Below are positions 34,026 through 44,563 of a DNA stretch of 64,000 nt, piece by piece. Source of the stretch: Hyalangium ruber (lineage in GTDB: Bacteria; Myxococcota; Myxococcia; Myxococcales; Myxococcaceae); contig NZ_JAXIVS010000019.1 in assembly GCF_034259325.1 (NCBI RefSeq), forward strand, positions 62,001 through 126,000, given 5' to 3'. A program made the translations under genes and the position numbers. A model generated the notes under the pieces. It saw nothing but the letters and a program-made list of their open reading frames with translations, ran no database searches and was not told where the DNA came from. Each line of letters opens with the position of its first letter. Position 1 is the stretch's first letter.

Positions 34026-34326
34026 GGCGCTCCCCCAGCATACAAGGCGTCAGCCACGGGCCCGGGGCGCTGGAAAAAAACGACGCGCGCCAGGCCTGCG
34101 AATGAGAGCCTGACGCGCGCCGAGAGACGACGACTTCAAGGGTGGCCCTCCCCCCCATGGGCCAGACAGTAGTTTCGCGTGAGGGGTCGATTAGTTTCTA
34201 TTGGGGGAACCCCTTAGGTCGTCCCTTCGTTCAATTTTGCGCACTTCCTCCGAATCCCAGAGGAAGCCGCTCCGCCGTGGGAGCACCCTCCGAAGGCTCG
34301 TCTGCGTGTCACAGGAGGAGCTATAC
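34026..34326. promoter_or_regulatory. divergent regulatory region of the Ntn-hydrolase operon and LuxR gene
   Basis: This ~300-bp gap holds an intrinsic terminator reading leftward (34074-34120), a short AT-richer patch at 34170-34205 that could hold divergent promoters, and the strong AGGAGGAG ribosome site of the LuxR-type gene at 34313-34320. No other gene is visible. Confidence 0.55.
34074..34120 (-). terminator. intrinsic terminator in the leader of the Ntn-hydrolase operon
   Basis: Read on the minus strand, a 13-bp stem (34108-34120 with 34083-34095, all pairs Watson-Crick except two G-U) has a 12-nt loop and is followed two bases later by seven T residues (34080-34074). This is a textbook rho-independent terminator, rare in such GC-rich DNA. 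It ends 48 bp before the start of the Ntn-hydrolase gene, with no minus-strand gene to its right that it could terminate. It therefore looks like an attenuator or the end of a short leader RNA. Confidence 0.75.
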
Positions 34327-35457
34327 TTGGAAATCGTGAATCAATTGGATTCCAGGGATAGAGCCCTCCTGGCGGACCTCCGGGGACAACTGGAGGTGCT
34401 CGAGCCTGGGGAGGAGGTGCTCCCGAGGCTGCTAGGCACCTTTCGCGAGAGCCTTCGGGCCGAGCGGATGGTGTCCTACGGGGTAGAAGTCGCCCCGGAG
34501 CAGTACGTGGCCAGCTTCTGCCACGGCGTGGGCTTTCCCCAACCGCAGGGGGAGTTGCTGGAGACGTTGAACGGGTTTCTGCGCCAGCAACCCAACCCCT
34601 GGGGTTACTACGATCCGGCGCGTCCGGCGCCGGCCCAGCGCAACCGGGCGCTGCACTTCAGCCCCCACGCGCAGGTGGAGTCGCAGGCGCCGCCGCTGCC
34701 TGACGCGCCCCAGGAGGGCTGGAGGCGACTGGGCATCGGCCCGGAGGAGGAGGCGCAGGTCCGGCAGCGGGTGAGCACCGCGGCGGGGACGCTGTACCGG
34801 CGCCTGGGCATGGAGCACATGTTCCAGGTGCGCGCGCTGGTGTGCGAGGGCCCCGCGCTGCTGGCGTGGGTGGGAGCGCTGCGCTCCGAGCCCTTCACGC
34901 CGCGCGAGCAGCGGCTGCTGCAGGAGTTGATCCCCTCGCTGCAGCGCCGGCTGAGCGTGGAGTTGCGGTTGCGAGAGGCAGGGCTGCTGGGCTCGGCGCT
35001 GGAGGCGGCGTTGGAGGCGCTCGGGCAGCCGGCCTACGTGCTCACCGCCACGGGGCGGGTGGTACACGCCAACAGCGCGGGCAAGGCCTGGGCGGAGCGC
35101 AGTCCCCGAGCGCTGGCGGATGTGACGCGGCGCTACGCGCGGGGCGAGCAGGGGGTGACGGATGCCTCCGTCACGCCGCTGCGGGTGCCCGGGCTCTCCA
35201 CACACTACCTGCTGGTGGACCGGAGCTCGGAGGCACAGGCCAGCGCGCGACTCCACGTGCTGAGCGAGCGCTGGGAGCTCACCGCGCGCGAGGCCGAGGT
35301 GATGGAGCACATCGTCCAGGGGGCCAGCAACAAGACCATCGCGGCGCGGCTGGGCTGCGCGGAGCGCACGGTGGAGGTCCACGTCACCCACGTGTTGAGC
35401 AAGGCGCAGGTGGAGAGCCGCTCGGCCCTCATCGCGAAGTTCTTCCAGGGCCCCTGA
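34327..35457 (+). CDS. LuxR-type transcriptional regulator
   Basis: A 376-residue protein with a C-terminal LuxR/GerE helix-turn-helix (LTAREAEVMEHIVQGASNKT, then AERTVEVHVTHVL). The N-terminal ~290 residues include a PAS-like stretch (GQPAYVLTATGRVVHANSAG) and an alpha-helical sensor region of unknown ligand. I choose TTG at 34327 because the strong Shine-Dalgarno AGGAGGAG (34313-34320) ends 6 nt before it. GTG at 34336 is too far and longer starts have no such site. No receiver domain is present, so it is not an ordinary response regulator. Confidence 0.85.
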   Translation: MEIVNQLDSRDRALLADLRGQLEVLEPGEEVLPRLLGTFRESLRAERMVSYGVEVAPEQYVASFCHGVGFPQPQGELLETLNGFLRQQPNPWGYYDPARPAPAQRNRALHFSPHAQVESQAPPLPDAPQEGWRRLGIGPEEEAQVRQRVSTAAGTLYRRLGMEHMFQVRALVCEGPALLAWVGALRSEPFTPREQRLLQELIPSLQRRLSVELRLREAGLLGSALEAALEALGQPAYVLTATGRVVHANSAGKAWAERSPRALADVTRRYARGEQGVTDASVTPLRVPGLSTHYLLVDRSSEAQASARLHVLSERWELTAREAEVMEHIVQGASNKTIAARLGCAERTVEVHVTHVLSKAQVESRSALIAKFFQGP

Positions 35458-35485
35458 GCGCTGGCGCCATGCCTAGGATGGGCGG

Positions 35486-36640
35486 GTGACCTCCCCTCGA
35501 ATCCAGGCTGCATTGGACAACGCCGCCCGATGCGCGGCGGGCGCTCCCCACTCCGAGCCCGCTCAGACTCCCCCCGTTCCGCGCACGCGGAGGGTGGCCA
35601 TCGGCGATCCCCAGGCGGACCTCGGCCGCTTCCTCGCCATCCTGGACCGGCATGGGCTGCTCGGCGCGAATGGGTGGCTGCTGCCACACGTGCAGCTCGT
35701 CTCGGTGGGAGACCACTTCGACTGGGGCGGCCGGGAGGAGCGGGAGGCGGTGGCGCGAAGCTGCCTGCGGCTGGTGGCGTGGCTCGCGGCGCACCCGGCG
35801 GATCAGGCCATCATCCTCGCCGGCAACCACGACCTGGGGCGCGTGGGAGAGATGGCGGAGTTCACCGACGCCACGTTCGCCCAGGCTCAGGCGGAGGCGG
35901 ACCGCGTGTACTCGGGAGACGACACGGACGAAGCGCAGGAGCACGCCTTCCTCGAGCGCTACCCGCACGTGCCCACAGTGGAGCTCGTCTCTCGTGACTT
36001 CGGCAACTTCCGGGAGGAGCAGCGCGCGTGGGTGACGCACCTGCTGCGGCAGCGGCGCCTGCGCGTGGCCTACGCGGCGGGGCCCTCGCTGCTCGTGCTG
36101 CATGCGGGCGTCACGCGAGAGGACCTGCGAGAGGTGGGTGTCGCGGAAGGAAGCCAGGGGGACGCACCCACGGTGGCGGCGGCGCTCAACGGGGCGCTGG
36201 ATGCGGCGGTGGAGGCCTGGAAGGGAGGCCGCCTCGTCATCCCCAAGCTGCACCACCCGGGCAGCGCGGCCTCCAGCGAGGGCGTGGGCATCTTCTACCA
36301 GCGCCCGAGTTTGAGCCCGGAGGAGGCGGAGCTCACGCGCCGCACTCCCCGCCGGCGCTTCGATCCCCGGCGGCTGCCGCTGGGGCTCACCCAGGTGGTG
36401 GGCCATACGAAGGACAAGCGCACCCGGCAGTTGCTGCGCCTTCCGGGCGAGGTGCGAGAGGGCATGCTGCGCCACCTGCTCACGGATGGCGCGCAGGTCT
36501 CCTATGCCCACGGCGCCCCAGCGAGAACAGGGCCCGGTGAGGCGGTGCTCGTCTTCACGGACGGCGGAATGCGCGAGGCGCCAGTGGAGGCGTACGAGCT
36601 GTTCGACCTGGACGCTCGCGCCGCCGCGCCGCCGGGCTGA
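35486..36640 (+). CDS. metallophosphoesterase (ApaH/Shewanella-like phosphatase type)
   Basis: 384 residues, GTG start. The metal-site motifs are IGDPQAD (replacing the usual GDxHG), VSVGDHFDWGG (GDxxDRG-like) and LAGNHDLG (GNHE/D), with later His residues in VLHAGVT and VVGHTKD. Together they indicate a calcineurin-like phosphatase that could act on phosphoproteins or dinucleotides. The protein is cytoplasmic, with no signal peptide. It follows the LuxR gene by 28 bp and may be cotranscribed. Confidence 0.86.
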   Translation: MTSPRIQAALDNAARCAAGAPHSEPAQTPPVPRTRRVAIGDPQADLGRFLAILDRHGLLGANGWLLPHVQLVSVGDHFDWGGREEREAVARSCLRLVAWLAAHPADQAIILAGNHDLGRVGEMAEFTDATFAQAQAEADRVYSGDDTDEAQEHAFLERYPHVPTVELVSRDFGNFREEQRAWVTHLLRQRRLRVAYAAGPSLLVLHAGVTREDLREVGVAEGSQGDAPTVAAALNGALDAAVEAWKGGRLVIPKLHHPGSAASSEGVGIFYQRPSLSPEEAELTRRTPRRRFDPRRLPLGLTQVVGHTKDKRTRQLLRLPGEVREGMLRHLLTDGAQVSYAHGAPARTGPGEAVLVFTDGGMREAPVEAYELFDLDARAAAPPG

Positions 36641-36658
36641 GCGGCGCGGCCTGGTGCC

Positions 36659-38011
36659 CTACTTCGCCTTCACCTCGGCGAGCTTCTTCACGAGCGCATC
36701 GAGCTGGCGCTGCGAGACCTGCGCCTCGGGCAGGGACTTCCCGTAGGCGATCGCCTCCTCGAGCGTCTTCACGGCCGCGTCCTTCTCTCCGCGAGCCACC
36801 TGAATGGCGGACCGGTCGGAGAGGACTCTCAGCCGTCGGCTTCCCTGGACACGCGCCAGTGCCCGGTCGTTGGCGGCGAGCGCCTCATCCAGCCTGCCCA
36901 GCATCCGGTAGAGGTTGGCCAGCCGGGCCGGCGGGTTGTAGTCGAGGGGCAGGTCCCGCTCGCTCTGCTCGATGGCGGGGACCACGCGCATCGGCTCCTC
37001 CAGCGCGAGCGCCGCCACCATGCGGTGCGAGTCGAAGACGGTGCGCGCCTCGGGGTTGGGAGCCTTGGCCGCCTCGCCCTCGAGGAACGTGAGCCACTGC
37101 TCCGCCAGCGCCTTCGAGCCCGCCGCATCCCCCGCGGCGGACCGGGCCTCCACCATCGCCTCGTACAGGCCGGAGCGGTCATCCGCGGGCATGTCGATGA
37201 GCGGAGGCGCCATCACCTCGACGGCCTTGGCCTCCAGCGTGCGAACCAGCTCCTTGCCCGCCGGGTGGTCCGGCGGAAGCGAGAGCGCGCAGATCAGCCC
37301 CATGGTCGTCGCATTGGCCAGGGACGGAGAGCGGGGCACGAGCGGTAGCTCCTGCATCGCCTTGCGCGCGCACGCCTCGGTCTGCTTCGCGCCCCAGAGG
37401 GCCGTCAGCAGTGACTCCAGCGTGCGGCCCCGGCGGGACCAGTCCGCGGGAGCCTCGGCGAGCGCCCGGCTGAAGGCCTCGGCGGCCTCGGCTGGCTTGC
37501 CCTGGCCATAGAGCGAGTCGCCCCACGCCAATGCCGCCTCGGCGCCCTCGGCCTTGCCGAGATAGGCGCGCTCACCATCCTCGAAGAGCTTCTCGAGCTG
37601 CGCCACGGTGGCGCTGCCCGCGAAGCGCACGAGGGCCTTCTCCTCCCTCGGGTCGATGATGAAGAAGGTGGGCCAGCTCTCGACCGGGTACTTCTCCTGG
37701 AAGACGGCGTTCTTTTCGAGATCCGTGTTGAGTTCGAGCCAGACGAACCGTCCGGCGTGCCGCGCGAGCGCCTTGTCCGTGAAGACGTAGGCCCGCATCG
37801 AGCGGCAGGTGTGTCACCACGGCGCCCAGGTATCGACGAAGAGGGGCACCCCCTTCGCCTTCGCCTCCGCGAGCGCGCGGGCGTAGTCATCCTCGATGAA
37901 CGGCAGAGGGGCCTGCTCCTGGGCTGCAACCGACGCCTCGGGCGCATTCGTGCGCGAGGCCGTGCAGGCCAGGAGCCCCACGACGAGCAGGCTGGCAACG
38001 TGAGTACGCAT
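36659..38011 (-). CDS. thioredoxin-like lipoprotein with in-frame UGA at the first active-site Cys (possible selenoprotein)
   Basis: Read through one TGA this is a 450-residue protein. The signal peptide has lipobox VVGLLAC (Cys16), followed by a linker. A thioredoxin fold then has DTWAPW-UGA-HTCRSM, with UGA as codon 66 and Cys69 three residues on, and YPVESWPTFFIIDP supplying the cis-Pro. The remaining ~300 residues are helical, with TPR-like repeats. The reading frame is open and coherent on both sides, and UGA replaces exactly the N-terminal Cys of a CxxC site. Two readings fit: selenocysteine (UxxC) or a point nonsense mutation making two fragments. A hairpin about 22 nt after the UGA exists but is not a clear bacterial SECIS. 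The start ATG at 38011 is the one just before the signal peptide; 38023 is an alternative. Confidence 0.7.
37814..37816 (-). other. in-frame UGA at thioredoxin active site
   Basis: On the minus strand the codons read GCG CCG TGG TGA CAC ACC TGC, i.e. A-P-W-(UGA)-H-T-C. The codon sits where related thioredoxin-fold proteins have Cys (WCxxC). No frame change is needed on either side. A possible SECIS-like stem-loop (37770-37792, loop TTCACG) follows; a second, weaker one is at 37793-37805. Confidence 0.75.
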
Positions 38012-38113
38012 GGCGGGCACCATAGCGCCGCCAGGCGGCTCTGTCCTCGGCGGACAGGGACGCGCGGAAGAACTGGGCGGAGCGTGCGGCGCGTGGTGTT
38101 CTCCGGTCATCGA

Positions 38114-39853
38114 ATGCTCACCCTGCCCGAGCTGCGCGCAGCCCTGGAGTCGGCCCTCACTGTCCTGCCCGCGCCAGAGCGCTTCTCTGGCGCGGAGGAC
38201 GCGGACACCGCGCGCCGCCTCGCCGAGCGCCTGCGCCGGGACTTGCTGCCCCGCCTGGGGGGAGATGCGCCGCTGCTGCTGGTGGCCATCGCCGGGCCCA
38301 ACAACGTGGGCAAGTCCACCCTGTTCAACGCGCTGGTGGGAGCGGCCCTGTCTCCCGCGCGCCCCGAGGGAGGCCTGACCAAGCAGTGCCTGGCGGCCGC
38401 GCACCCGGAGACGTGGACGGGCTCGCTGCGCGACTTCCTCACCCGCCGCTATGACGTCGTCCCGGTGCCCACGGGCTCCAGCGCGCCGGTGGACCAGCCG
38501 GGCCCGTCCGGGCGCCTCTACCTGGTGCTGGCGGAGGCGGTGCCCCAGGGGCTGCTGGTGATGGACACGCCGGACTTCGACAGCGTGTACCGCGACAACC
38601 GCGAGCGCACCGAGGCGCTGCTCGTCACCGTGGACGTGCTCGTCTTCGTGGTGAGCCGGCAGACGTACCAGAACGCGGCGCTGGTGGACTTCCTGCGCGC
38701 GGGGGTGGGGCGCGGGCGGCCGTACCTGCTCGTCTACAACGAGGCCACGCGCGAGGAGGTGGCGCGCGGGCACCTGGACAAGCTGGCCTCCGACGTGGGC
38801 CACCCGCCCCTGGCGCGCTACCTCGCCCCGCACCAGCCGGAGGTGGAGGCCGGGCAGCGGCCCTTGAGCACCCAGCCGCTGGACGGACAGCCCACCCTCT
38901 CCGCGCTGCTGGGCGAGGCCGAGCACGTGCGCGAGCTGAAGGCCCGGGCGCTGGCCGCCTCCCTGGCGGATGCGCGCGCGGAGATGGAGACGCTGGGCCG
39001 GGCGGCGCGACAGGCCACCCACGAGCCGGAGCGACTGCGCCAGCGGCTGCGCCACGAGCTGTTCGCGGTGGGCAAGAGCGCGGCGCTCAAGGGCGTGCCC
39101 GCGGACGTGCTGGTGGATGCCTTCCGGGACGAGCTGGACGCGCGCAGCTCGTTCCACCGCTACGTGCGCCTGCCGTTCCGGGCGCTGGCCACGGCGCTGA
39201 CGTTCGTCTCGCGCAAGGTGGCCCAGTCCTTCACGGGCGCGGAGCCCTCCGCGGCGCCGGTGCTCCACGCCACGGACGAGACGCTGCGTGACGGGGTGCG
39301 GCGGCTGGTGGACCTGATGGCGCCGGAGGTGGCCGCGTGGCGGGGAGACGCGGCGACGCGCGAGCAGCTCTCCGAGGCGTTCGGCCCGCCCACGCTGGCG
39401 CGGCTGGAGGAGCCGCTGGGCTTCGAGCCGCTCCATGCCCACGCGGCGGACCGCGACAGCCTCTACACCTTCTGCCGGAGCCTGGTGGGCGAGGAGCTGC
39501 AGGGCGGCATGCGCCAGGAGCTGCTCCAGGCGCTCACCACGCTCGTCTACTCGGTGCCCTCGGGGGCGGCGGCGGTGGTGACGGTGGCCACGGGCGGCAT
39601 GGGGCATGACGCCGTCATCTGGGCCGGCACGCTGCTGTCCACGCCGCTGCTGGAGCGCTTCGTGGACCTGCTGGGAGCGGACGTGCGCGCCCGCGTCACC
39701 CAGAAGTGGGCGGACGCCCACGGCGCCACGCTGGCCAAAGCCCTGGAGGCGCGCTTCTTCGCCCCGCTGCTGGGACACCTGGACACGCAGTCAGCCCAGT
39801 GGACGCGCACCGCCGAGGCCCTGGAAGTCACCGCCCGAAGGCTCGCGGAGTAG
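38114..39853 (+). CDS. dynamin-like GTPase
   Basis: 579 residues. The G1 P-loop is GPNNVGKST (near residue 62), G3 is DTPDFDS, and the usual NKxD appears to be replaced by VYNEAT. A long helical region follows, with two hydrophobic stretches near the C-terminus (SVPSGAAAVVTVATGGMG and VIWAGTLLSTPLLERFVDLL), as in membrane-remodelling GTPases. It resembles the GTPase at 54987-56711, so the window holds two related members. ATG at 38114 is used, though an in-frame GTG at 38096 is possible. It is divergent from the UGA-containing thioredoxin gene. Confidence 0.82.
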   Translation: MLTLPELRAALESALTVLPAPERFSGAEDADTARRLAERLRRDLLPRLGGDAPLLLVAIAGPNNVGKSTLFNALVGAALSPARPEGGLTKQCLAAAHPETWTGSLRDFLTRRYDVVPVPTGSSAPVDQPGPSGRLYLVLAEAVPQGLLVMDTPDFDSVYRDNRERTEALLVTVDVLVFVVSRQTYQNAALVDFLRAGVGRGRPYLLVYNEATREEVARGHLDKLASDVGHPPLARYLAPHQPEVEAGQRPLSTQPLDGQPTLSALLGEAEHVRELKARALAASLADARAEMETLGRAARQATHEPERLRQRLRHELFAVGKSAALKGVPADVLVDAFRDELDARSSFHRYVRLPFRALATALTFVSRKVAQSFTGAEPSAAPVLHATDETLRDGVRRLVDLMAPEVAAWRGDAATREQLSEAFGPPTLARLEEPLGFEPLHAHAADRDSLYTFCRSLVGEELQGGMRQELLQALTTLVYSVPSGAAAVVTVATGGMGHDAVIWAGTLLSTPLLERFVDLLGADVRARVTQKWADAHGATLAKALEARFFAPLLGHLDTQSAQWTRTAEALEVTARRLAE

Positions 39854-39958
39854 GCGGGCAACCCACCTTCAGCAGGGGAACGGCCCCCGCCTTGCTGGCG
39901 GATGGGGTGGGTTCATTGCACTATCGGACACTCCCTCGGCCTCTGCTGGAGCTGCGCC

Positions 39959-41746
39959 GTGCAGACCCCTCCCCCTCAGCCCGCGCCTACCGCGCCGGTA
40001 GCGACCACTCGCCTGCCGCTGGCGGCCCGACTGCTGCTGCTCATCCTCGCGGTGGCGGTGCCGCCGCTGGTGGGGCTGGGGCTGGCGATGATGAACGTGA
40101 ACGAGGGGGCGCTGCTGCACTCGGCGCGCGAGCTGCACCTCTCCATCGCGTTGGATGTGCGCCGAGCCCTGCGGGAGGAGCTGGAGCGCGCCCGACAGCA
40201 GAGCGCGGCCATCGGCTACTTGATGCTCGCCCCCGACGTGGGCACGCAGGAGGAGCGCGAGAAGCTGGCCGACTCGCAGCTCGCGTTCTCCACCAGCCTG
40301 GACTTCGTGTCGTTCTACAGCCTGGAGGGTGAGCGCCTGGGCACCCTGAAGGCGCGGGGCGTCGCCGAGCCGGACACGCCCGCGACGCTGCCGACGGCGC
40401 TGCTCACGGAGGTACCCGAGCAGGGCCTGCGGGTCCTCGGGCTGACGATGGCGGGAGAGCTTCCCTCCCTGCGCGTGCTGCAGCGCGCGAGCGTGGAGGG
40501 CAAGCCCCTGGCCTACCTGCTGACGCACGTGCGGCTGAAGCCCCTGGTGGATCAGCTCCAGGTGCTGAGCACGGAGTGGGACGGCCTGGAGGAGGGCGTG
40601 TACGTGGTGGACGCGGAGCGGCGGGTGGTGCTGCACCCGACGCGCTCGCGGCTGGGCGCCTCGCTGGCGGAGTCCGACTTCTTCGCGGCAATTGGCCGGG
40701 AGGTGTCCTTCCACTCGGACTTCGTGGCGGCCTCCGACTTCGAGGCCGAGATGCCGATGTTCGGCGCGCTGGTGACGGTGCCCGAGGTGGGCTGGGCCAT
40801 CGTGGTGCAGCGCTCGCAGCCGCTCACCTTCAAGACGCTCCGGGACATGCGGCTCTCGGTGGGGCTGGCGCTGGGGCTCTGCGCGCTGGTGGCGCTCGTC
40901 GGCGCCTGGCTGGGGGCCCGGCAGCTCTCGCGTCCCATTCAGGCGCTGGTGCGCGCCACGCGGAGCATCGCCGCGCGGAGCTTCACCCAGGTAGAGGGCG
41001 AGGTGGAGACGCGGGCGGACGAGCTGGGGCACCTGGGGCGCTCGCTCGGGGAGATGGCGCGCTCGCTGGAGAGCTCCGAGAAGGAGTTGGTGGAGCAGAC
41101 GCGGGTGCGCACGGCGCTGAGCCGCTACCTGTCCGCGGACGTGGTGGAGCTCATCGCCCGGGAGCCGGGCCGGCTACGGCTGGGAGGCGAGCGGCGCGAG
41201 GTGACGGTGCTCTTCTCGGACGTGTGCGGCTTCACGCGCCTGTCGGAGTCGCTGCCGCCGGAGACGGTGGTGGCGCTGCTCAACGAGCTGTTCACCTTCG
41301 CCACGGAGATCATCCACCGGCGCGGCGGCATCATCGACAAGTTCATCGGCGACAGCGTAATGGCGGTGTGGGGCACGCCCGAGTCGCACCCGGACGACGC
41401 ACGCCAGGCGGTGGAGGCGGCGATGGAGCTCCGTCGCTGGGTGGAGACGGGCAACCGGCGCTGGCGGCAGAAGTGGGGCGTGGAGATTCAGCTGGCCATG
41501 GGGCTGCACACCGGCACGGTGGTGGCGGGCAACCTCGGCAGTGAGAAGCGCATGGAGTACACGGTCATCGGCGACGCGGTGAACGTAGCGGCGCGGTTGG
41601 AGTCGATGGCGCAGCCGGGGCAGATCCTCGTGAGCGCGGCGACGCGGGAGCGGCTGGGCGAGGAGGCCGAGGTGCTGCGCCACCTGGGCGAGCGCGCGCT
41701 GCATGGCCGCAACGCCACCACGCAGGTGTTCGAGGTGGCCGCGTGA
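39959..41746 (+). CDS. membrane cyclase with extracytoplasmic sensor and HAMP
   Basis: 595 residues from GTG at 39959 (GGAG about 10 nt upstream). A transmembrane helix lies at ~25-50, then an extracytoplasmic sensor of Cache type (~55-300: MFGALVTVPEVGWAIVVQRS). A second TM helix (~310-335) and HAMP follow, then a class III cyclase domain (~400-590) with both metal Asp residues (LFSDVCGFT, IDKFIGDSVMAVWG) and intact VIGDAVNVAARLE. It should make cAMP or cGMP in response to an external signal. Its stop overlaps the next gene's start (GTGA), linking it to a Ser/Thr kinase. Confidence 0.9.
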   Translation: MQTPPPQPAPTAPVATTRLPLAARLLLLILAVAVPPLVGLGLAMMNVNEGALLHSARELHLSIALDVRRALREELERARQQSAAIGYLMLAPDVGTQEEREKLADSQLAFSTSLDFVSFYSLEGERLGTLKARGVAEPDTPATLPTALLTEVPEQGLRVLGLTMAGELPSLRVLQRASVEGKPLAYLLTHVRLKPLVDQLQVLSTEWDGLEEGVYVVDAERRVVLHPTRSRLGASLAESDFFAAIGREVSFHSDFVAASDFEAEMPMFGALVTVPEVGWAIVVQRSQPLTFKTLRDMRLSVGLALGLCALVALVGAWLGARQLSRPIQALVRATRSIAARSFTQVEGEVETRADELGHLGRSLGEMARSLESSEKELVEQTRVRTALSRYLSADVVELIAREPGRLRLGGERREVTVLFSDVCGFTRLSESLPPETVVALLNELFTFATEIIHRRGGIIDKFIGDSVMAVWGTPESHPDDARQAVEAAMELRRWVETGNRRWRQKWGVEIQLAMGLHTGTVVAGNLGSEKRMEYTVIGDAVNVAARLESMAQPGQILVSAATRERLGEEAEVLRHLGERALHGRNATTQVFEVAA

Positions 41747-43041
41747 GCACCGAGCCCGATGCGCGACTGGGGAGGACCCTGGCCGGGCGCTACCACCTGC
41801 AGCGCGTGCTGGGCCGGGGCGGGATGGGGACGGTGTACGAGGCGGAGCACGTGGGCCTGTCCCGCCAGGTGGCGGTCAAGGTGCTGCACACGCACATCGC
41901 CACCGCGCCGGGAGCGGTGATGCGCTTCCAGCGCGAGGCCCGGCTGATGGCGCGGCTCCAGCATCCAGGAGCGGCCCAGGTGTACGACTTCGGCGAGGAG
42001 GCCGGAGAGCTCTTCCTCGTCATGGAGCGACTCCAAGGCGAGACGCTGGACACGGTCACCTTCCGCGAGGGCCCGCTGTCCATCCCGCTGGCGGTGGAGG
42101 TGGTGGCGCAGGTGCTGGAGGTGCTCGAGGCCTCCCATGCGCTGGGCATCGTCCACCGGGACCTCAAGCCCGGCAACGTGATGCTCCTCGGGGAGCTGTC
42201 CGCCCCTCGCGTGAAGGTGCTGGACTTCGGCTTGGCGCAGCTGGTGGACGGCTCGCCTCAGGAGCGCATCACCGTCTCGGGCATGGTGCATGGCACGCCG
42301 GGGTACATGTCTCCTGAGCAGTGCCGAGGAGAGCCGCTGGACGGGCGCGCGGACCTGTACGCTCTGGGGTGCGTGCTGCACGAGCTCCTCATCGGGCAGC
42401 CGCCTTTCGGAGAGATGCCGGTCGCGGAGGTGATGAGCGGGCACCTGTACCGCCCTCCCGCGCCCCTGCGGCAGCTGCGGCCCCATCTCTCCATCCCGCC
42501 GGCGCTGGACACGCTGGTGCTCGAGTGCCTGGCGAAGATGAAGGAGCAGCGCCCGGACAACGCCCAGGTGATGCGGCTGCGGCTGCGCCAGTCGCTCTCC
42601 CTTCCCATCTCCCTGGCCCAGGCGCCCCGAGGCGAGGGCAAGAAGAAGGAGCGCCCCCTGCCGGCGCCCCAGCCCTCGAAGACCGAGGTGCCCTCGGATG
42701 CTCCCGTGGGAGTGATGGAGGCGGGGGGCCTCGCCAATCCTCATGGAGTCGGCACGGCGCTCGCCGCGGCCGGCTTTCGCGTCGTGCCGTGCGTCGAAGG
42801 GGTGTCCGTGGGCGACGTGCGCGCACTGATCATCGTCCCCGAGGCCGGAGGTGATGCACTGCCCCTGGCGCGCCAGCTGGCCTCACGTCCTCATGGGCCG
42901 CCGGTGCTGCTGTGCGGCGAGGACGACCTCACGGTGATGACCCGTGCCATTGAAGGTGGAGTCTATGACTACATCCCGCTTCCGCTGGATCCGGTGGACC
43001 TCTCTCGCAAGGTGGCTCGTGCCCTGCGGGCGCGCCGCTGA
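41743..43041 (+). CDS. Ser/Thr protein kinase fused to a pseudo-receiver
   Basis: 432 residues. Residues ~15-280 are a complete Hanks-type kinase: GRGGMG loop, VAVKVLH Lys, HRDLKPGN catalytic loop, DFGLA and TPGYMSPEQ. The C-terminal ~115 residues have a receiver-like pattern (ALIIVPEAGGD...YIPLPLDPVDL). The phospho-accepting Asp (LLD in real receivers) is replaced by Val-Pro, and the conserved Lys before Pro (KP) by Leu. It is therefore a non-phosphorylatable pseudo-receiver, likely a docking domain. There is no transmembrane segment. Its GTG start overlaps the cyclase stop and the FecR/LysM gene overlaps its 3' end. Confidence 0.88.
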   Translation: MSTEPDARLGRTLAGRYHLQRVLGRGGMGTVYEAEHVGLSRQVAVKVLHTHIATAPGAVMRFQREARLMARLQHPGAAQVYDFGEEAGELFLVMERLQGETLDTVTFREGPLSIPLAVEVVAQVLEVLEASHALGIVHRDLKPGNVMLLGELSAPRVKVLDFGLAQLVDGSPQERITVSGMVHGTPGYMSPEQCRGEPLDGRADLYALGCVLHELLIGQPPFGEMPVAEVMSGHLYRPPAPLRQLRPHLSIPPALDTLVLECLAKMKEQRPDNAQVMRLRLRQSLSLPISLAQAPRGEGKKKERPLPAPQPSKTEVPSDAPVGVMEAGGLANPHGVGTALAAAGFRVVPCVEGVSVGDVRALIIVPEAGGDALPLARQLASRPHGPPVLLCGEDDLTVMTRAIEGGVYDYIPLPLDPVDLSRKVARALRARR

Positions 43042-44563
43042 GCGCGTCCTGGGGCTGGGACTGCTGCTCCTGGCCACCGTGGTGGGGGCGGCCGAGCCGG
43101 AGGGCCCGAGCGAGGACTTCATCGTCGTGCAGCCGGGAGACACGTGCCAGCTGCTCGGCCAGCGCCTGTGGGGCACGCCGGATGGGTACCGGCAGCTCCA
43201 CGCGCTCAATGCCTTGAAGAACGCGCACCCCCCGCTGGTGCCGGGCATGCGCCTGCGCATCCGCCCCGAGCCGGAGGCTCACCTCACGTACGTAAAGCCG
43301 GACGTCAACACGCGTCCGCCACAGGAGCCGCAGTGGAAGCCAGGGCGCCAGGGCGAGGCGCTGTACCGGCTCTACCAGGTGAACACCCTGCGCGGCGCGG
43401 GAGCGGAGGTGACGCTGAAGGACACCTCGAAGCTGCAGCTGCGAGAGAACGCGCTCGTCGTCATCTACGGCGCGCCGCAGGCCACCCCGAAGGAGCCGGA
43501 GCGCAAGTCAGGCGGCGTGGAGCTGGTGCAAGGAGACCTGCGCATGCGGCTGGCGGCGCTGCGGGGCGAGTCCCTGCCGCTGGAGACTCCCTCGGCACAG
43601 GTGGCGGCCACCGGGCAGGACGTGTTCGTCAGCGTGGATGAGCAGCGCATGAGCCGGGTGGCGGTGTTCGACGGCAAGGCGCAGGTCTCTGCGAAGGGCG
43701 CGCGGGTGGAGGTCCCTGGCGGAAACGGCACGCGCGTGGAGCAGGGCAAGGCGCCCGAGCCCCCGCGTCCACTCCTCCCCGCGCCGGCTTGGAGCACCCC
43801 GGGAGTGCGCGAGGTGCTGCTGGCGCTCGGTGGCACGCCCCAGTTCCACCCCCTGAAGTGGCAACCCGTGCCGGGGGCGGTGAGCTACCGCGCGGTGCTG
43901 GCGAAGGATGAAGGGCTCAATGATTTGGTGGCCCAGGCGGCTCCGACCTCGGAGGTGACGGCCACCTTCGAGACGACCGCATTGGCGCCGGGTCGGTACT
44001 ACGCCCGGGTGCAGGCGGTGGACGCGCTGGGGCTGCCGGGCATGCCCTCCGCGCCGCGCAAGGTGGAGGTGGTGGCGGTGAAGGTGGAGCGCGGCGAAGC
44101 CCAGGACCCGGTGCGGGTGAAGGGGCGTGGGCAGGTGAAGCTGTCCGTGGACCCGGCGGCGGGCATGGCGCTGCGCGTGAAGGGCAAGGCAGTGGGCACC
44201 GAGGCGGTGATGCTGGCGCCGGGGATTCACACGGTGGACGCGGTGGGTGTGCTCCGGCCGGTAAGCGTGGAGGTCCAACCTTCGGTGAGCGCGGAGGTGA
44301 CGCTGCGGCCCGAGGGAGACCGGTTCCAGCTGGAGGTGAACGCCCGTCCCACGGAGGCGGGCGCTCCGCCCATCGCGGATGGCGCCGTGATGGTGAGCGG
44401 GCTGGAGGGCTCGACGGTGTCGAACCTGGTCCGCAAGAGCGAGACGCGCTGGGAGGCGACCGTGGCGCCCGTGAAGGCGGGAGCTCGGCTCCGGGCGGCG
44501 GTGGAGGTCAAGGCGTACGGTGAGGCGGTGGGCCGAGCGAACGCCGAGGCCGAGGCGCGCTGA
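43019..44563 (+). CDS. exported LysM/FecR-domain protein
   Basis: 514 residues from the GTG at 43019, which follows AAGGTGG and gives a signal peptide (VLGLGLLLLATVVGA, AA cleavage); an in-frame ATG at 42965 would lie further inside the kinase gene. A LysM module (VQPGDTCQLLGQRLWG) binds peptidoglycan. A FecR-like beta domain follows (VELVQGDLRMRLAAL, VAATGQDVFVSVD), then Ig/Fn3-like segments. This combination with a cyclase or kinase is a common deltaproteobacterial envelope-sensing set. It probably sits in the periplasm and is coupled to the upstream kinase by a 23-bp overlap. Confidence 0.86.
   Translation: MPCGRAAERVLGLGLLLLATVVGAAEPEGPSEDFIVVQPGDTCQLLGQRLWGTPDGYRQLHALNALKNAHPPLVPGMRLRIRPEPEAHLTYVKPDVNTRPPQEPQWKPGRQGEALYRLYQVNTLRGAGAEVTLKDTSKLQLRENALVVIYGAPQATPKEPERKSGGVELVQGDLRMRLAALRGESLPLETPSAQVAATGQDVFVSVDEQRMSRVAVFDGKAQVSAKGARVEVPGGNGTRVEQGKAPEPPRPLLPAPAWSTPGVREVLLALGGTPQFHPLKWQPVPGAVSYRAVLAKDEGLNDLVAQAAPTSEVTATFETTALAPGRYYARVQAVDALGLPGMPSAPRKVEVVAVKVERGEAQDPVRVKGRGQVKLSVDPAAGMALRVKGKAVGTEAVMLAPGIHTVDAVGVLRPVSVEVQPSVSAEVTLRPEGDRFQLEVNARPTEAGAPPIADGAVMVSGLEGSTVSNLVRKSETRWEATVAPVKAGARLRAAVEVKAYGEAVGRANAEAEAR

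Follow-up and report, generated by a model that had tools for sequence, protein, structure and literature searches.

We identified in the myxobacterium Hyalangium ruber a gene whose in-frame UGA codon most likely encodes selenocysteine (Sec) in the active site of a thioredoxin-like envelope protein. The gene occupies positions 36659..38011 on the minus strand of the analyzed 64,000-nucleotide stretch (hereafter, the window), with a start ATG at 38011-38009, a stop TAG at 36661-36659, and a second in-frame ATG upstream, at 38023. When the TGA at 37816-37814 is read as U, this is the single recoded codon, no further stop appears until the terminal TAG, and the product has 450 residues. The initial annotation had described such a frame, running from a lipoprotein signal to a TPR-like end with one TGA on the first Cys codon of a WCxxC-type site, and had left the strand unstated; we confirmed this description. 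Numbered from the ATG at 38011, the site reads Sec66-His-Thr-Cys69 in the context DTWAPW-U-HTCRSM, with the proposed Sec codon of W-U-H-T-C at 37814..37816 and the codon of the resolving Cys69 (UxxC), which is Cys in 23/23 TGA rows of the homologue alignment, at 37805..37807. Judging by the Sec machinery of the genome, the codon itself, the conservation through the stop, and the domain architecture, all of them read from DNA sequence, we conclude that this stop-interrupted myxobacterial gene is almost certainly intact and that it is a real selenoprotein gene, the presence of Sec in the protein itself being a prediction. Such genes are liable to be split or clipped by ordinary annotation. We hold with high confidence that the product would be an exported, lipid-anchored envelope selenoprotein combining Thioredoxin_7 and TPR domains.

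The window itself contains no Sec machinery, as had been pointed out at the outset, and a genome without selB and selC would have spoken against the proposal. The host genome (10.77 Mb, 43 contigs) was found to contain selA, selB, selC, and selD on other contigs, each above its curated cut-off: SelA with 566.8 bits (cut-off 267.9), SelB with 306.9 bits (242.25), SelD with 385.9 bits (125), and tRNA-Sec with 72.4 bits (47), the latter also called by ARAGORN as tRNA-SeC with anticodon TCA (UCA). The selD gene of this genome (L060, G000:C7:62733-63659, minus strand) carries its own in-frame TGA at the known Sec position (SHCAGUAAK), which fits the UxxK motif given for Sec-containing SelD in the consulted text of PMC13188914. 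The search for SelB and tRNA-Sec covered the H. ruber genome, and SelA and SelD were surveyed across the order. SelA exceeds the cut-off in 25/25 genomes with a TGA gene, which is weak support because 128/145 genomes of the order also have it; SelD exceeds the cut-off in 24/25 such genomes and in 129/145 overall, the exception being G032, a genome 81% complete. As further selenoprotein candidates, FdhA gave five matches, none over the cut-off and none with an internal stop, and none of the 16 other thioredoxin matches in the H. ruber genome carries a TGA.

The SelD survey provided two side observations. The SelD genes have TGA in many genomes of the order and Cys in others, so that SelD too seems to switch between Sec and Cys. 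In one genome (G137, L083), the thioredoxin-TPR gene has a TGA and the SelD match is without an internal stop, which suggests that SelD is not what maintains Sec decoding there.

We compared the active-site codon among homologues using a codon-level tblastn search of 88 loci, which yielded 90 rows. Every row has TGA, TGC, or TGT at this position, namely TGA in 25 and a Cys codon in 65; the ratio 25/90 is not a frequency, as TGA-flagged rows were selected on purpose (22 of the 40 stretches in the targeted sampling carried the flag) and some genomes are represented twice. The order-wide search at E <= 0.001 produced a match, in some cases a weak one, in 143/145 genomes. Among the matches listed, 26 were flagged with one TGA, and in 25 of them the TGA falls on the active-site codon; the exception (L098 in G049) has a Cys codon, TGC, at the site, and its TGA lies close to the C-terminus, at codon +366. 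No TAA or TAG was seen in the frames of the homologues among the matches listed. The genomes with TGA belong to four families: six to that of H. ruber (f1; genera g1, g3, g8 (twice), g10, and g17), 17 to f3, which we take to be Anaeromyxobacter-like, and one each to f6 and f7. At the phylum level a match was found in 186/195 genomes and, among the matches listed, no TGA row was added to those of the order-wide search; a scan of named genomes gave 18 loci, all myxobacterial judging by their titles. Tandem duplicates of the thioredoxin-TPR gene were also observed (L103 and L104 in G113 and G112, and, by position among the matches listed, in G101 and G110), with the second copy keeping CxxC and losing the WAPW context (FVFATAGWC, FVHAMAGWC).

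This distribution bears on the possibility of an ordinary nonsense change, that is, a pseudogene or a sequencing error in a thioredoxin-TPR gene, for which the stop within the frame and the Cys codon of many relatives could be cited. The same TGA is found in 24 other genomes, making a sequencing error very unlikely, and the 23 distinct full-length TGA genes contain 23 in-frame stops in total, one per gene. Two close Cys homologues have 17 and 21 codons that are one base away from TGA, only one of which is the active-site Cys; the original argument that a random stop would rarely hit this codon is thus borne out by 25 rows. The homologues also continue at full length past the site, and no downstream breakage was detected. 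For the analyses of selection, RNA, and the larger tree, we worked with the 74 rows (23 with TGA) that remained once identical proteins and the truncated rows L078, L080, and L102 had been taken out. For the H. ruber gene and the two TGA genes closest to it, our own Nei-Gojobori script gave dN/dS values of 0.28-0.63 upstream of the UGA, 0.15-0.28 across the following 80 codons, and 0.19-0.30 for the TPR tail. We conclude from these sequence comparisons that purifying selection acts on both sides of the TGA. Together with the full Sec system of the genome, these results make a defective or misread gene highly improbable.

The complete protein would consist of three parts. The signal peptide up to the lipobox Cys16 (MRTHVASLLVVGLLAC; 37964..38011, minus strand) was assigned by pattern match only. 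The LLAC lipobox pattern is present in five of the six TGA rows of f1, including H. ruber, and is not matched in the TGA rows of f3, f6, and f7, where a plain signal peptide is therefore more likely; in f1 we predict a lipoprotein on the basis of this pattern. The thioredoxin-fold domain (about residues 35-153; 37551..37909, minus strand) is supported by Pfam Thioredoxin_7 (PF13899, residues 40-121, 44.7 bits, cut-off 27), by the model, and by structural matches, and the protein has the cis-Pro motif SWPTFFIIDP. It is followed by a TPR superhelix (about residues 156-450; 36662..37547, minus strand), which is matched from residue 157 by PF13424 (32 bits, cut-off 30.1) and PF07719 (30.8 bits, cut-off 27) and structurally by 4wnd (Z 17.4, rmsd 5.4, 286 aligned). 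The AlphaFold2 model, built from an 18-row alignment, has a mean pLDDT of 90.0 and pTM of 0.86, with residues 1-31 below 50; it contains a thioredoxin fold followed by helices up to residue 449, and the UxxC geometry lies in the confident thioredoxin part.

An ATG at 37798-37796, seven codons past the UGA, opens a 379-aa reading frame, so the locus could be imagined to make its TPR protein separately from a short N-terminal peptide. According to the model, such a division would fall inside the thioredoxin fold, separating the first strand from the active-site helix; moreover, by eye no Shine-Dalgarno-like stretch precedes this ATG, and the Cys relatives are one continuous gene. We give this arrangement almost no credence. 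The sequencing-error, pseudogene, and two-gene readings were rejected on the shared TGA, selection, and fold continuity.

If a SECIS element overlaps the code, synonymous positions downstream of the TGA are expected to be constrained in TGA genes and not in Cys genes. We examined codons +4 to +20 after the UGA (37754..37804, minus strand) as the candidate SECIS by synonymous conservation, folding relative to synonymous shuffles, and counts of hairpins and pairs. Among pairs with 40-50% protein identity, the rate of identical codons was 0.75 in TGA pairs versus 0.64 in Cys pairs for codons +1..+10, and 0.82 versus 0.49 for codons +11..+20; at 65-75% identity, TGA pairs had 0.94 and 0.87 in the two intervals, versus 0.67 and 0.67 in Cys pairs. 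The rate is also raised in codons +21..+40, in TGA and Cys groups alike. The mean folding z at +4..+20 was -1.93 in 23 TGA genes versus -0.45 in 51 Cys genes (Mann-Whitney 6e-8, ignoring relatedness), and -1.89 versus -0.63 in a smaller set with 26 chosen Cys genes. It was negative in 23/23 TGA genes, and at 15 other window positions the mean z of TGA genes was between -0.88 and 1.15. The own z of the H. ruber gene is a modest -1.37, and 7/81 other windows of this gene are as low.

The usual hairpin has the foot GCUUC..GAAGC and the top GUC..GAC; in H. ruber it spans about 37759-37803 on the minus strand, with an apical loop at about 37778-37783. The TGA alignment has 74.6% paired cells and a covariation score of 0.126, and neither value was reached by any of 500 shuffles or by a slid version. 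In two of the five pair measures, the pairs and the cells changed on both sides, a slid control matched or exceeded the TGA alignment, and the number of pairs changed on both sides was reached by 38/500 shuffles. In the Cys alignment the proportion of paired cells is 52.6%, and 37/500 shuffles attained its covariation score. RNAalifold alone favours two shorter hairpins over the long one. These comparisons, whose statistics ignore relatedness, support a UGA-specific structured RNA overlapping the code just downstream. Codons +5 and +18 at the hairpin foot seem linked, with Phe TTC accompanied by Lys AAG in most Anaeromyxobacter-like rows and Ser accompanied by Arg CGG in the family of H. ruber, as though the foot imposed this choice on the protein; two rows, L091 and L094, violate the pairing (TTC with CGG).

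The element is unlike a textbook bacterial SECIS (bSECIS). We applied as an approximation the consensus rules in the Figure 2 legend of PMC13188914: a loop of 3-9 nt with G in its first two positions, located 16-37 nt from the UGA, a stem of 4-16 bp, and an MFE of at most -7.5. The H. ruber gene has one weak hairpin that satisfies them. However, a check of this kind, which had been suggested for the gene, did not, in this GC-rich DNA, set TGA genes (9/23) apart from Cys genes (23/51), synonymous shuffles (138/230), or other windows of the same genes (150/184). The loop of the candidate SECIS is without the consensus G, and a search of Rfam with 37500-38100 gave eight matches, each below the gathering score. 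According to the consulted text of PMC13188914, a subset of bSECIS elements falls outside the consensus. The early doubt about a convincing SECIS was thus justified with respect to the consensus rules, and it did not hold with respect to conservation and folding, which reveal a structured stretch specific to UGA genes. Based on the latter, the stretch very probably is a SECIS, albeit a candidate of non-textbook form. In SelD, a hairpin GCGCAG-GU(C/G/U)-CUGCGC follows the TGA in 11/13 TGA genes (among 31 SelD loci, L126-L155 and L060) and is likely the SelD SECIS; in H. ruber the distance from the UGA to its loop is 33 nt, and the hairpin fits the bSECIS rules.

If the UGA were read as a different residue, such as Trp or Cys via a near-cognate tRNA, the frame would also stay conserved through it, and the poor fit to the consensus SECIS rules is in favour of this reading. 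Against it, the genome encodes SelB and a tRNA-Sec with the anticodon TCA, the codon always corresponds to the redox Cys of homologues, and the RNA constraint downstream is specific to UGA, so that we regard it as very unlikely. Selenocysteine is the preferred reading. We infer the Sec residue, the SECIS function, lipidation, compartment, chemistry, and partners as follows. SelB and Sec-tRNA-Sec would decode the UGA, aided by an RNA hairpin over the next 20 or so codons, and the protein, once exported, would be held in the cell envelope by a lipid anchor. On the model of thioredoxins and DsbD-type domains, Sec66 would be the nucleophile attacking a disulfide or an oxidised thiol, Cys69 would resolve the bond, and an envelope reductant would recycle the pair. 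The TPR superhelix probably docks a client or partner. The protein would likely serve to reduce or isomerise disulfides of envelope proteins, or to repair thiols that have become oxidised.

The gene neighbourhood in the window (34201-44563) includes a LuxR-type regulator, a metallophosphoesterase, an MMR_HSR1/dynamin-like GTPase, an adenylate cyclase with HAMP, a Ser/Thr kinase, and a FecR-type protein; no operon partner was found in this neighbourhood. The LuxR-type regulator and metallophosphoesterase adjoin the gene in many Archangiaceae/Myxococcaceae loci, TGA or Cys alike, and had no match in the short flanks of f3, f6, and f7 loci. The flanks of four other loci contain different genes. 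In the flanks of the loci examined, some of them short, we found no neighbour common to all families that would hint at a substrate.

We used phylogenetic trees to follow the state of the active-site codon. The 74-row protein tree, made by a quick method, needs six state changes, or five if well-supported branches alone count, and a 22-row DNA tree with the codons around the site removed forces three. Judging by these trees, close relatives have switched between Sec and Cys at least three times. One clade of the 22-row tree (97/97) consists of three TGA genes, that of H. ruber among them, and the Cys-encoding gene of Hyalangium versicolor, which pairs with one of the three at 100/100. Constraining the three TGA genes of this clade together was rejected (p-AU 0.0024), as was constraining all four TGA rows of the tree (6.8e-6). 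The most parsimonious history would be a single gain of Sec that H. versicolor later reversed to Cys; recombination may instead have produced this Cys state. The stretch corresponding to the candidate SECIS has a weaker fold in H. versicolor, at -16.3 kcal/mol (z -0.72), versus -20.5, -20.5, and -21.5 in the three TGA genes.

Sister genomes with Sec or Cys at one site of closely related envelope proteins offer a natural experiment. Myxobacteria of the H. ruber family are aerobes. According to the consulted text of PMC13188914, aerobic bacteria rarely retain selenoproteins, and documented Sec-to-Cys changes occur primarily in FdhA and SelD. Clear switching outside these two families, with a visible fate of the RNA, would allow tests of the benefit of Sec and of the gain and loss of SECIS. 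We tentatively propose, as a possibility somewhat short of an even chance, an uncatalogued myxobacterial selenoprotein family with an unusual SECIS (an extended hairpin whose apical loop is rich in pyrimidines and without G), toggling between Sec and Cys, and a recent reversion in H. versicolor accompanied by decay of the hairpin. If the loop is truly without G, the range of SECIS elements readable by SelB widens.

With respect to known systems, the closest solved folds for residues 35-153 are the DsbD C-terminal (gamma) domain and envelope thioredoxins, including 2fwe (Z 14.6, rmsd 2.6, 114 aligned), 3f9u (Z 15.8, rmsd 2.2, 118 aligned), and 2kuc; DsbD and 2kuc are also matched by sequence. 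The likeness to DsbD-type systems is confined to the thioredoxin part, and the NCBIfam DsbD model matched residues 43-135 alone with 33.4 bits (cut-off 330), placing the protein outside that family. YbbN/CnoX (3qou) also has a thioredoxin domain followed by TPRs (Foldseek E 1.6e-4; TM-score 0.19 by query length and 0.30 by target length). YbbN acts as a chaperone in the cytoplasm and has no functional CxxC, whereas the H. ruber protein has a predicted signal peptide and UxxC. No NCBIfam model was above the cut-off for the H. ruber protein or three Cys homologues. Two selenoprotein families with thioredoxin-type domains matched weakly and do not include it, namely the Trx7/PDZ (seleno)protein NF041199 (16.8 bits, cut-off 300) and TsoB NF045694 (25.2 bits, cut-off 805), which have CxxU and UxxxxU, respectively (table in PMC13188914).

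The initial annotation had recognised no described family for this protein. In one genome (G014), which we take to be Anaeromyxobacter dehalogenans, the orthologue is the sole TGA carrier among 12 thioredoxin matches. A 2006 survey counts 'thioredoxin (2)' among the selenoproteins of A. dehalogenans, with no architecture given in the consulted survey text (PMC1794560), and the orthologue may therefore be one of these two entries. The claim of an undescribed family thus holds for the 119-family inventory of 2026, which names no thioredoxin-TPR family (PMC13188914, Table 1), and is weakened by this possible earlier count. Beyond it, we found no description of the family in the consulted, mostly open main texts of PMC13188914, PMC1794560, PMC1914089, PMC9312934, PMC12013277, and PMC5029168, and in the literature searched to that extent none of the thioredoxin-TPR architecture, the myxobacterial spread, the switching, or the odd RNA element. 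UxxC thioredoxins are already a known kind: the thioredoxin (PF00085) and thiol:disulfide interchange (PF13098) selenoproteins catalogued in Table 1 of PMC13188914 likewise have Sec for the first Cys of CxxC, a thioredoxin fold, and Cys homologues. In contrast to them, the protein described here has a predicted lipobox signal peptide (in f1), a TPR superhelix of ~295 residues, and Thioredoxin_7 as its best Pfam match.
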